Part shown: piece after piece, positions 9,085 through 12,023 of the stretch
Layout of the letters: every line of letters starts with the position of its first letter
How positions within the stretch are numbered: position 1 is the stretch's first letter
Assembly: GCF_022014595.1 (NCBI RefSeq)
Contig: NZ_CP091740.1
Location: 2,964,200-3,028,199 of the forward strand
DNA from: Solitalea lacus
GTDB taxonomy: Bacteria > Bacteroidota > Bacteroidia > Sphingobacteriales > Sphingobacteriaceae
DNA length: 64,000 nucleotides
Direction of reading: 5' to 3'
Program-made: the position numbers and the translations under genes
Notes under the pieces: model-generated
What the model was told of the DNA's origin: nothing
The model's database searches: none
The model's input: the letters and a program-made list of their open reading frames with translations, nothing else

Positions 9085-9121
9085 AACGGATGGAGGGGTT
9101 ACTGCTTCATCCGTTTTTTTT
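9085..9121 (+). terminator. accD intrinsic terminator, abutted by an insertion sequence
   Basis: Eight-bp stem AACGGATG/CATCCGTT (9085-9092 with 9108-9115) followed by an unbroken T run to 9121. The left inverted repeat of the insertion sequence begins at 9122, so the element sits in the T-tract itself; the run resumes as TTTT after the right end at 10808. Confidence 0.8.
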
Positions 9122-9141
9122 AGGGACTCTTGGGAAATTCC
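9122..9141. repeat. Left terminal inverted repeat of the IS
   Basis: AGGGACTCTTGGGAAATTCC; pairs with 10788-10807 at 16 of 20 positions and sets the left boundary of the element. Confidence 0.8.
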
Positions 9142-9144
9142 GAA

Positions 9145-9183
9145 GAAAGCGGCAATCCAAATAAAATTTGGGTTGCCGCTTTC
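9145..9183. terminator. IS-borne hairpin inside the left end
   Basis: A 17-bp stem (9145-9161 with 9167-9183, one G-T pair, 5-nt loop) inside the left inverted repeat. Pyrimidine-rich sequence follows on both strands. It lies downstream of the transposase gene and probably terminates its mRNA, and it would also stop accD read-through entering the element. Confidence 0.6.
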
Positions 9184-9333
9184 TTTCTTTGTGGCAGTTT
9201 GAGTAGGCCAGCACGACCAACTTGTGGATAACTGGGCAGGATTTGTGGAAAAGGGTCGAAATTTTGAAAAAAACGATGCAACAGGGCACACTTTGCCCTT
9301 GCGGGATTGCTTGGGCAGCTGTGGCAGGAGGTT

Positions 9334-10668
9334 TTAGGCGGCTAAATCGGGAGCTTGGGCCTTCTCCCGCTTAGTGACCATGCGCACGGCGTTGGCGGTC
9401 ATCACCCCAAAGAACATCCAAAGGGTTTCATTAGCCTGGTTACGTGCCTTGATGCGCCGCAGATCGTAGTGATTCTTTTCCGTTCCAAAGCTACCCTCCA
9501 GCCGGGTGGAACGTTCTTTATTCAACAGGGCTCTCAGGGTTTTCTTTTCCGGCGTATCGCCTCTGCCTTTTTGCACAAAGCCGGTAGCAATCTTCCGCTC
9601 GCTCAGGTATTTTCGATTGGCATTGGTGGCATAAATCCGGTCGCCTGCAAATTGATGACAGGTACCGAACAGGCGCCCATGTAGGGCTAGCGAAGCTTCT
9701 ACTCGCTTACATTCATTATAAGCCGCATAGCTGTAATGTTCAATGATATTGATCCCATCCACCTGCAGCATGTGCACTTTGGCCCCAAATTCACAGGGTT
9801 TGTTTTCCTTGCCCCGTACAATGGAACGCACAAAAGGCTTGTACAGGGACAATACCCTGTCGGGTAGTTTCTTACCGGGATTTTCCAACAAGAACCGCTG
9901 CTCCTTTAACACTTGCTCCACCAAGTCAAAGCGTTCCCGGAGCCGCCCGGCCAGTTGCAGCCTGTCGCCCATTAAGCGAAAAACATCCTTAATCAGGCCA
10001 TTCAAGCGGGTGAGTAACTTGATTAACTGCTGGCAGCGACGACGTGACTTGCGCTGGCTTTTCTTACGGAGTAAATTGAAAGTCGATTGTTTGAGTTGTT
10101 GTTCATTAAAAGCGTTTTTAGCCCGCTTTAGCTTACAGGATTTCAACAAATCTTCGTATAACTCATGACTGAACAGGCAGCAATCCCACAGCAGTTTCAC
10201 GCTGGTAGGGTATTTCATGTCGCTTTCATACACGGTGGCATCGCAGAACAAAACCTGCGTTTCCTTCAGCTGCGGCTTCCAATAACGAATCAGTTCTTCC
10301 TGAAACAGCTGCAGATCCAGGTGTTTGGCCACATAACTGCGGATTCTGGAGACCAGGGTGACATCCTTGATTTGTTCATTATCGGCCAGGCGCATGCCGC
10401 AAAACAACTGCATTTGCCAATTCCCGTTCAGGTGTTCAATCAACTGCTCATCACTCAGACCAGTATAGGACTTCAAAAACAACAAGGCCAACATGCCCTC
10501 TGGAGCCAGCCAGGCTTTAGCGCCACGTGCACTGCCCTTAGCCGGTAAGAGGGCTGCCAAGCGGTCCAGTGGAAGTACCTGGCGGAGTTTGCCCAAGCTG
10601 GTCGTCTGAAAAATAATTTCGCGGGGACTTTGCAGTTCGTTGACAGGAAATAAGTAGTTTTGCAGCAT
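9334..10668 (-). CDS. DDE transposase (IS5/IS1182-like)
   Basis: A 444-residue intact transposase that cuts and joins the ends of the surrounding insertion sequence. The N-terminal third has the DUF772-like region (LAPEGMLALLFLKSYTGLSDEQ near 55-75). The first catalytic Asp is in LFCDATVYESDMKYPT near residue 140, the second in FAGDRIYATNANRKYLSE near 345 and the Glu in RLEGSFGTEKNHYDLRRIKA near 395. A basic, arginine/lysine-rich insertion lies near 200-215. The exact IS family (IS5, IS1182 or ISNCY) cannot be fixed without a database search. Codon use is more GC-rich than in accD or the cysteine desulfurase gene beside it. Confidence 0.88.
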   Translation of the reverse strand: MLQNYLFPVNELQSPREIIFQTTSLGKLRQVLPLDRLAALLPAKGSARGAKAWLAPEGMLALLFLKSYTGLSDEQLIEHLNGNWQMQLFCGMRLADNEQIKDVTLVSRIRSYVAKHLDLQLFQEELIRYWKPQLKETQVLFCDATVYESDMKYPTSVKLLWDCCLFSHELYEDLLKSCKLKRAKNAFNEQQLKQSTFNLLRKKSQRKSRRRCQQLIKLLTRLNGLIKDVFRLMGDRLQLAGRLRERFDLVEQVLKEQRFLLENPGKKLPDRVLSLYKPFVRSIVRGKENKPCEFGAKVHMLQVDGINIIEHYSYAAYNECKRVEASLALHGRLFGTCHQFAGDRIYATNANRKYLSERKIATGFVQKGRGDTPEKKTLRALLNKERSTRLEGSFGTEKNHYDLRRIKARNQANETLWMFFGVMTANAVRMVTKREKAQAPDLAA

Positions 10669-10704
10669 ATTATTTTGTTGTTTCGCAAAACCAAAATAAT
10701 GAAA

Positions 10705-10742
10705 AACCCCGATTTGGCCTCATTTGAGACTTTTTCGGGGTT
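10705..10742 (+). terminator. IS-borne terminator upstream of the transposase
   Basis: Stem AACCCCGA/TCGGGGTT (10705-10712 with 10735-10742) followed by ATTTTTTT on the plus strand. It points out of the element, opposite to the transposase gene, and would stop plus-strand transcripts crossing the IS. Confidence 0.55.
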
Positions 10743-10787
10743 ATTTTTTTGAATTCAACACAATTAATAGCTGTGTTTCAGGGAATT

Positions 10788-10807
10788 GTAATTTTCAAAG
10801 ACTCCCT
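10788..10807. repeat. Right terminal inverted repeat of the IS
   Basis: Read on the minus strand AGGGAGTCTTTGAAAATTAC, 16 of 20 positions matching the left end. Confidence 0.8.
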
Positions 10808-10821
10808 TTTTATTACAAATA

Positions 10822-10857
10822 AAAAAGTGAATTATCTATAATGATAATCCACTTTTT
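10822..10857 (-). terminator. Intrinsic terminator of the cysteine desulfurase gene
   Basis: A 15-bp stem (10822-10836 with 10843-10857, one G-T pair, 6-nt loop) with A/T runs on both sides, 20 bp past the stop codon. It can act in both directions, so it originally formed part of a convergent terminator region with that of accD. Confidence 0.75.
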
Positions 10858-10877
10858 AAAATATTGCTAAAAACAAA

Positions 10878-12023
10878 TTACTTCACTGCAACTTCCACAG
10901 GAACAATCTGTTTTAATTTTTCGATTGTATAGTCGATCTCTTCTTTAGTCGTCATTTTACTGAAAGAAAAACGAATAGCCGGACGGTTTGGATCAGCTCC
11001 AATACCCGAAAGCACATGCGAACCAATGTTTGAACCTGAAGAACAAGCACTTCCACCTGAAGCCGAGATACCGTTAATATCTAAGTTAAACAACATCATA
11101 TCGCCCATATCAGACTCAGGGAATGACACGTTTAATACTGTATATAAACTCTTTTCGGGGTTAGTTTCACCATTAAATTGAATGTCTGGGAAATTTTGAA
11201 GTAATTGCTCTTTCATGTACGATTTTAAATCTTGAACATGTTGAGCATGTTGCTCCATCTCATTATAAGCAATTTCCAATGCCTTAGCCAAACCTACAAT
11301 GCCATAAACATTCTCAGTTCCACCACGCATGTTACGCTCTTGAGCTCCACCGTAAATTAAAGGTTTAATTTTAACATTATGGTTTACATATAAAAAGCCA
11401 ACTCCTTTAGGTCCGTGCAATTTATGTGCTGCACAAGCCACAAAATGCACTTTAAGCTTGCTTAAGTCATGCACATAGTGTCCCATGGTTTGCACTGTAT
11501 CACAATGGAATAATGCATTGTACTGCTCACAAAGGTTGCCAACTCGCTCAATATCCAATAAAGTACCTATTTCGTTATTGGCATGCATTAACGAAACAAA
11601 GCTTCGTTCGTTGGTTTTAAGCAATTCTTCAAGGTGGTTATAATCGACATTTCCCTTATCGTCAATGTTTACATAACTTAGCTTGATAATGCCCTTTTTC
11701 TCCAGTTCTTCAAAAGTGTGACCAACTGCATGGTGCTCAATTTTTGAAGTAATGGCGTGAGTAATACCATTATCAATAATTCCACAACGGATTGCCGTGT
11801 TATCGGCTTCGGTTCCTCCAGAAGTAAAGAAAATCTCAGCAGGTGAAGTATTCAACAATTTTGCAATAGTCTTGCGCGCCATTTCAACTGCAGAACGCAC
11901 CTCGCGACCGTGTGCATGGATGGAAGAAGGGTTCCCAAATTGATTCTCCATCATGTTGAACATCACCGCCAATACTTCCTTATCAATTGGAGTAGTAGCA
12001 GCATTGTCTAAATAAACTCTCAT
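10878..12023 (-). CDS. Cysteine desulfurase (NifS/IscS family)
   Basis: PLP-dependent enzyme that removes sulfur from cysteine to feed Fe-S cluster, thiamine or tRNA thiolation pathways. The 381-residue protein begins MRVYLDNAATTPID, carries the HCDTVQ segment near 175, the PLP lysine in CAAHKLHGPKGVGFLYV near 205, the RGGTENV motif near 235 and the catalytic cysteine in SASGGSACSSGS near 325. No IscU or other iron-sulfur genes are adjacent, so whether it serves as the general IscS or a dedicated sulfur donor is open. It lies 113 bp downstream of glmM on the same strand, separated by an imperfect hairpin. Confidence 0.92.
   Translation of the reverse strand: MRVYLDNAATTPIDKEVLAVMFNMMENQFGNPSSIHAHGREVRSAVEMARKTIAKLLNTSPAEIFFTSGGTEADNTAIRCGIIDNGITHAITSKIEHHAVGHTFEELEKKGIIKLSYVNIDDKGNVDYNHLEELLKTNERSFVSLMHANNEIGTLLDIERVGNLCEQYNALFHCDTVQTMGHYVHDLSKLKVHFVACAAHKLHGPKGVGFLYVNHNVKIKPLIYGGAQERNMRGGTENVYGIVGLAKALEIAYNEMEQHAQHVQDLKSYMKEQLLQNFPDIQFNGETNPEKSLYTVLNVSFPESDMGDMMLFNLDINGISASGGSACSSGSNIGSHVLSGIGADPNRPAIRFSFSKMTTKEEIDYTIEKLKQIVPVEVAVK

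Follow-up and report, generated by a model that had tools for sequence, protein, structure and literature searches.

The window analysed here is the whole of a stretch of 64,000 nucleotides, positions 2,964,200 to 3,028,199 of the forward strand of contig NZ_CP091740.1, from the single-contig, 4.40 Mb genome of Solitalea lacus (GCF_022014595.1). In it, an insertion sequence (IS) lies between two convergent genes. We take the gene on its left to be accD; that on its right (10878-12023) is presumably a cysteine desulfurase. Both names are putative, that of accD following an earlier note on this DNA. The features of the locus are:

9085-9115, plus strand: hairpin of the accD terminator, intact (sequence and folding prediction)
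9114-9121, plus strand: T8 tract belonging to that terminator, whole on the accD side (sequence)
9117-9122, no strand: target duplication TTTTTA, 6 bp, left copy, the end of the accD T-tract (sequence)
9123-10806, minus strand (that of the transposase): insertion sequence, 1684 bp, IS5-like (four genome copies with the same ends)
9123-9136, plus strand: terminal inverted repeat GGGACTCTTGGGAA, agreeing with the opposite end at 11 of 14 bases
9143-9185, plus strand: terminator-like hairpin with a 20-bp stem, inside the accD-side IS end (predicted -31.5 kcal/mol)
9334-10668, minus strand: transposase gene, 444 aa, the sole gene of the IS (DUF772, weak DDE_Tnp_1_2; nearest NCBIfam profile IS5_1, below cut-off)
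10707-10740, minus strand: transposase leader hairpin, terminator-like, CCCCGAAAA, inner stem, AAAACGGGG (CCCCG...CGGGG), with counterparts in the family
10793-10806, minus strand: terminal inverted repeat, complement GGGAGTCTTTGAAA, imperfect partner of 9123-9136
10807-10812, no strand: target duplication TTTTTA, 6 bp, right copy (exact repeat of 9117-9122)
10822-10857, minus strand: terminator-like hairpin belonging to the convergent gene at 10878-12023 (sequence and folding prediction)

Read from accD, the order at the junction is the hairpin (9085-9115), eight T's (9114-9121), an A (9122), and then the IS, which begins GGGACTC... at 9123 and finishes ...GACTCCC at 10806. The earlier note had described this hairpin, with its T run to 9121, as adjoining an IS, and in this it was right. 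It erred in starting the left repeat of the IS at 9121, and in supposing that the insertion split the T run, which then resumed as TTTT on the far side. Here, the T's to the right of the IS are the 6-bp target duplication (10807-10812), which copies 9117-9122. Therefore, the accD terminator is complete on its own side, where the hairpin with T8A has a predicted folding energy of -16.0 kcal/mol. Both ideas, of a T run that resumes and of a terminator that is damaged, were dropped once the duplication was recognised. The hairpins that the note placed close inside both IS ends are indeed seen (9143-9185 and 10707-10740), as is a terminator-like hairpin of the convergent neighbour beyond the right end. 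The proposal that the IS hairpins replace a damaged accD terminator is not needed, the accD terminator being intact, yet many members of the family carry such end hairpins.

An accD locus without the IS, the comparison that the note had recommended, is available from sister species rather than sister strains. In one congener (G046), accD is 84% identical over 829 of 892 bases, and is followed by a similar terminator and, across a spacer free of any IS, by the convergent gene. The remaining two congeners have the accD terminator and different DNA beyond it.

The element and its relatives

The element has a transposase gene between inverted ends, an exact 6-bp duplication, and several copies in its genome, as generally expected of an insertion sequence. 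It is a DDE insertion sequence, from a group of Bacteroidota elements that resemble IS5. Of the domains expected in IS5/IS1182-like DDE transposases, DUF772 is matched at 39.6 bits, above the Pfam cut-off of 23.1, and the DDE domain (DDE_Tnp_1_2) at 26.5 bits, below the cut-off of 29.2. Three residues, D143, D343, and E391, are invariant in an alignment of six related transposases, and we take them to be the candidate DDE catalytic triad. The likeness to the IS5 family lies in the DUF772 and DDE domains and in the best NCBIfam score, which goes to IS5_1 (NF033578) over nearly the full length; the difference is that this score, 144.5 bits, is below the cut-off of 275, a cut-off that the transposases of relatives miss as well (P. 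vulgatus 168, Belliella 186, G953 158 bits). The cut-offs of the IS1182 family (NF033551, 47.7 bits against a cut-off of 270) and the ISNCY family (NF033593, 119.8 against 325) were not reached.

The genome holds four copies, 99.0-100% identical over their aligned pieces. All have common ends (the end repeats of the window IS were also scored in two other copies, L016 and L017, with the same result), and each has its own exact 6-bp repeat: TTTTTA in the window, and TAGGAC, GAAAGC, and TACATT elsewhere. Three lie between convergent genes (the window copy and copies 2 and 3). Copy 3 (L017, 1432400-1436500 of the same genome) sits at the foot of a 14-pair terminator stem; it lacks an equivalent of the hairpin at 9143-9185, which was deleted between short direct repeats. 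Copy 4 (L018, 1722900-1728700) splits an ORF, presumably that of peptidase E. Thus, the remark in the note that the element disturbs no gene holds for the window copy, and fails for copy 4. Copy 4 is itself broken by another IS, whose transposase frame has 497 aa and whose insertion left a direct duplication of 30 bp.

Scans of genome and viral contig collections with the single protein gave no relatives. A search of two overlapping samples, 301 genomes from the family and 400 from the order, with E up to 1e-60, yielded one relative besides the S. lacus copies, 37% identical, in G282. The G+C content of the IS is 48%, against 38% for the window; this contrast, together with the distance of all relatives found in the searched genomes, suggests that the IS may have arrived recently from elsewhere.

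To reach relatives, a profile (A1) of six transposases, 36-43% identical to that of the window, was needed. It gave 441 related loci in genome contigs, of which the best 80 were used, and 3 in viral contigs. Ends were located by rule for 42 of these 83; the other 41, where the rule found no ends or no duplication, were dropped. Two of the dropped loci (L072 and L094) may be real, having an exact 6-bp repeat but end repeats that are weak or begin differently. Five others (L035, L036, L043, L044, L045) were excluded with ends weak or not found. The first set of 54 sites contains the 42 scan loci, the 4 copies in S. lacus, 5 sites from G953 (which had 7 matches, the other 2 being one diverged, broken copy), and L034, L037, and L046. 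Further copies were then sought in genomes that carry some of these loci, and in 301 members of the family to which P. vulgatus belongs. Among 32 hits in the regions so obtained, 13 were accepted (2 of them duplicates) and 19 rejected; the 11 sites added by rule, with 5 restored by hand, bring the set to 70. The 5 are rejected matches from G1240, whose ends agree among copies and whose 6-bp repeats are exact; 2 more G1240 copies, with 5 of 6 repeat bases, were left out. The set was drawn without phage matches H42-H45, plasmid matches beyond H1-H4, and H1 (L038), which lacks ends. That last record (OY726060.1, 1531 bases, deposited as a circular Phocaeicola massiliensis plasmid) was considered as an IS circle and rejected; it is a 1530-nt family IS fragment, at 99.5% identity, and the plasmid record is probably an assembly artefact.

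Hairpins carried by the family

The survey of end hairpins, under a lenient rule, covered 32 elements of the family; among these are two pairs whose members differ solely by a small deletion. Near the 5' end of the transposase gene, a terminator-like hairpin was found in 28 of the 32 reading into the gene, and in 31 reading out. Near the opposite end, 27 elements have one that reads in, and 17 one that reads out. The baseline of the rule, from 96 mid-element windows, was 3 and 19 on the two strands.

The leader hairpin has a further character. Under a loose pattern, it is found just upstream of the transposase start in all 32 elements, whose transposases are only ~40% identical. For each of its 30 different sequences, folding predicts an outer stem rich in G/C. 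The outer stems of L034 and L076 differ yet remain paired, and inner stems vary among elements; the alignment of the leader hairpins (A2) is shifted by one column between subgroups. These patterns suggest that the leader hairpin may be under selection, and make it a candidate for a regulatory RNA or a transposase-binding element.

Concentration between convergent genes

The hexamers duplicated at the 70 sites have the consensus TA[AT][AT]TA, its six positions being matched by 58 (T), 58 (A), 59 (A/T), 60 (A/T), 56 (T), and 56 (A) sites. Comparing the 300-bp empty sites all against all by blastn gave no long match shared across the insertion point.

Classed by surroundings, 36 of the 70 empty sites lie in convergent spacers, 15 in tandem spacers, 3 in divergent spacers, and 14 in ORFs, with 2 unclassed. 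In the surrounding DNA, convergent spacers make up 2.6% of bases, tandem spacers 6.2%, divergent spacers 2.8%, and coding sequence 87%. The share of convergent spacers rises to 3.9% when only AT-rich T....A hexamers are considered. (Genes were called as longest ORFs, with a minimum of 90 aa, by a simple script; this gene caller, the hairpin finder, and the terminator finder were all custom-made.) All counted sites belong, of course, to copies that were retained, and such copies do not separate target choice from selection.

The control was formed by other ISs: seven groups in S. lacus, P. vulgatus, and B. bouchesdurhonensis, for which 53 regions were taken and 52 sites used, L148 having no partner. 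Many control ends are approximate, no duplication having been found (most of own_C541, Pv_E590, and Bb_G600); Pv_E590 and Bb_G600 may represent the same kind of IS, present in two genomes, and a run of N flanks L165. Of these 52 sites, 9 are convergent, 22 tandem, 5 divergent, and 16 coding. The difference in convergent placement, 36/70 against 9/52, has a Fisher p of 1.3e-4 overall, and of 2.1e-4 when only spacer sites are compared. As multiples of background, the family reaches 19.8-fold in convergent spacers, where the controls reach 5.5-fold; in tandem spacers, the figures are 3.5-fold and 6.3-fold. The contrast repeats in each genome (family against control, convergent): 3/4 against 3/18 in S. 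lacus, 7/15 against 2/16 in P. vulgatus, and 4/5 against 4/18 in B. bouchesdurhonensis.

These numbers hold under several changes. An ORF minimum anywhere from 60 to 150 aa gives 33-36 convergent sites of 70 (p 2e-3 to 1.3e-4). Without P. vulgatus, 29 of 55 are convergent; without the five hand-restored copies from G1240, none of which is in a convergent spacer, 36 of 65. In tandem spacers, family sites are no closer than control sites to the 3' end of the upstream gene (10/15 against 14/22 are nearer to that end). The family is thus firmly biased toward convergent gene ends, more so than the other ISs of the three shared genomes.

The earlier note had left two readings of the window copy: chance, or target choice for terminator T-tracts. 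As to the first, an accidental landing in one T-tract by a family without preference would fit a genome that has only four copies, one of them in an ORF. The family-wide distribution, its contrast with the control ISs (some 20-fold against 5.5-fold), and the 12 of 70 sites that lie in T-tracts make chance a very improbable explanation. The note had also held that copies in coding DNA, inserted without bias, would refute target choice. Copies in coding DNA exist, copy 4 and others among them; the bias persists regardless.

Could the hexamer itself deliver the bias? One of the control ISs in P. vulgatus (L149-L154), unrelated-looking and with a 305-aa transposase frame, duplicates TAAATA-like hexamers, and 5 of its 6 copies are in ORFs. 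A preference for such hexamers is thus not enough to bring an IS into convergent spacers.

Target choice, selection, and terminators

On a rival reading, intrinsic terminators, hairpin and T-tract together, are what the transposase specifically recognises, in the manner of group IIC introns. Here, a T-tract means the 12 bp that follow the core stem of a terminator prediction; the predictions come from a strict finder, which may have overlooked some terminators. Family sites fall in a predicted T-tract in 12 of 70 cases, against 2 of 52 for the controls (p 0.024), and within 12 bp of a predicted terminator in 18, against 4 (p 0.016). As background, T-tracts occupy 0.6% of bases, 2.4% of intergenic bases, and 4.7% of convergent spacer; the zone within 12 bp of a terminator occupies 2.2%, 7.4%, and 14.8%. 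Some sites (L083, L125, and copy 3 of S. lacus) are in a hairpin loop or at a hairpin foot.

The signal weakens, however, as the comparison narrows. Among spacer sites only, T-tracts hold 11 of 54 family sites and 2 of 36 control sites (p 0.067), and the zone within 12 bp holds 16 and 4 (p 0.043). Placing insertions uniformly within the same spacers, 8 of 36 sites are in T-tracts where 2.8 are expected (p 0.002), or 11 of 56 where 3.6 are expected in a larger set (p 2e-4). When positions are weighted by hexamer preference, expectation rises to 5.7 for the 8 (p 0.14) and to 7.2 for the 11 (p 0.05), and terminator nearness gives p 0.02-0.17; the weights derive from the same sites, which makes this test conservative. 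Tests of distance to hairpins, threshold-dependent and uncorrected for multiple testing, gave p 0.004-0.64 in 48 tests on 54 family sites and p 0.33-0.77 in 6 on control sites. Once the hexamer preference is allowed for, the T-tract excess within a spacer is borderline. With 58 of 70 sites outside predicted T-tracts and 14 of 70 in ORFs, a strict form of the T-tract choice raised in the note is not supported, and a transposase that specifically recognises intrinsic terminators is unlikely.

Selection by itself might, of course, produce the same map. Any suitable hexamer would be hit; copies in operons, tandem spacers, and genes would be lost, their end terminators cutting downstream sequence off from its promoter, and convergent copies would survive. 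Most family elements do carry terminator-like end hairpins, and since an element brings its own terminators, selection against tandem positions is plausible; tandem spacers are indeed less favoured than by the control ISs. A passage of PMC9208149, which reports an excess of convergent placement for ten IS families, points the same way. The copies that should be purged first, however, are those in ORFs, and these are not much rarer than among controls (14/70 against 16/52). This argues against selection alone, which we regard as a possible account, and not the probable one.

The explanation that we prefer, with confidence a little better than even, is that an IS5-like DDE element with AT-rich hexamer targets concentrates between convergent genes at least partly by target choice, and silences its insertions with its own terminators. 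The duplications show that the transposase duplicates 6 bp at AT-rich, near-palindromic hexamers, TA[AT][AT]TA. Surviving copies are strongly concentrated in short convergent spacers, where intrinsic terminators lie. The T-tract of a terminator is one AT-rich hexamer among those available in such spacers, and the window copy used one. Part of the bias, at least, may be target choice; the transposase might, for instance, prefer AT-rich DNA that melts or bends easily at the points where transcripts end. The end hairpins, in turn, may stop transcription into and out of the IS, keeping its insertions transcriptionally silent.

A bolder version is that the transposase senses the ends of transcription units (as a terminator hairpin, a paused or colliding polymerase, or convergent topology), giving insertions safe for the host, and that the end terminators and conserved leader hairpin insulate host and element from each other. 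This we consider doubtful.

To our knowledge, few one-gene DNA transposons pick places harmless to the host. The IS group is present in gut and environmental Bacteroidota, where named strains, P. vulgatus ATCC 8482 among them, carry several nearly identical copies, and it offers a simple system for separating target choice from selection. Were target choice true, it might become a tool for placing DNA between genes. On a convergent or terminator preference of these elements, nothing was found in the open-licence literature, by a search that was in part weak.

Known systems resemble parts of this picture. In the passages of Tobes and Pareja (2006; PMC1525189) on such insertions, REP palindromes, which often lie between convergent genes, are targeted by some ISs, such as ISNm1106 of the IS5 family. 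The likeness is in the extragenic, palindrome-associated, often convergent sites, and in the reasoning about a harmless place; the difference is that a REP is a repeated sequence, whereas the sites of the present family share, as far as tested, just an AT-rich hexamer. The present family is over-represented in the ->IS<- placement in the same way as the ten families of PMC9208149, in a passage that does not include IS5. That passage reads the placement as possible regulation; here, the excess is measured against other ISs of the same genomes. Group IIC introns, according to the statement in PMC4424553 that cites Robart 2007, insert at intrinsic-terminator motifs, as some copies here do. Those introns, however, are retroelements, whereas the present IS is a DNA transposon with a looser link to the terminator itself.
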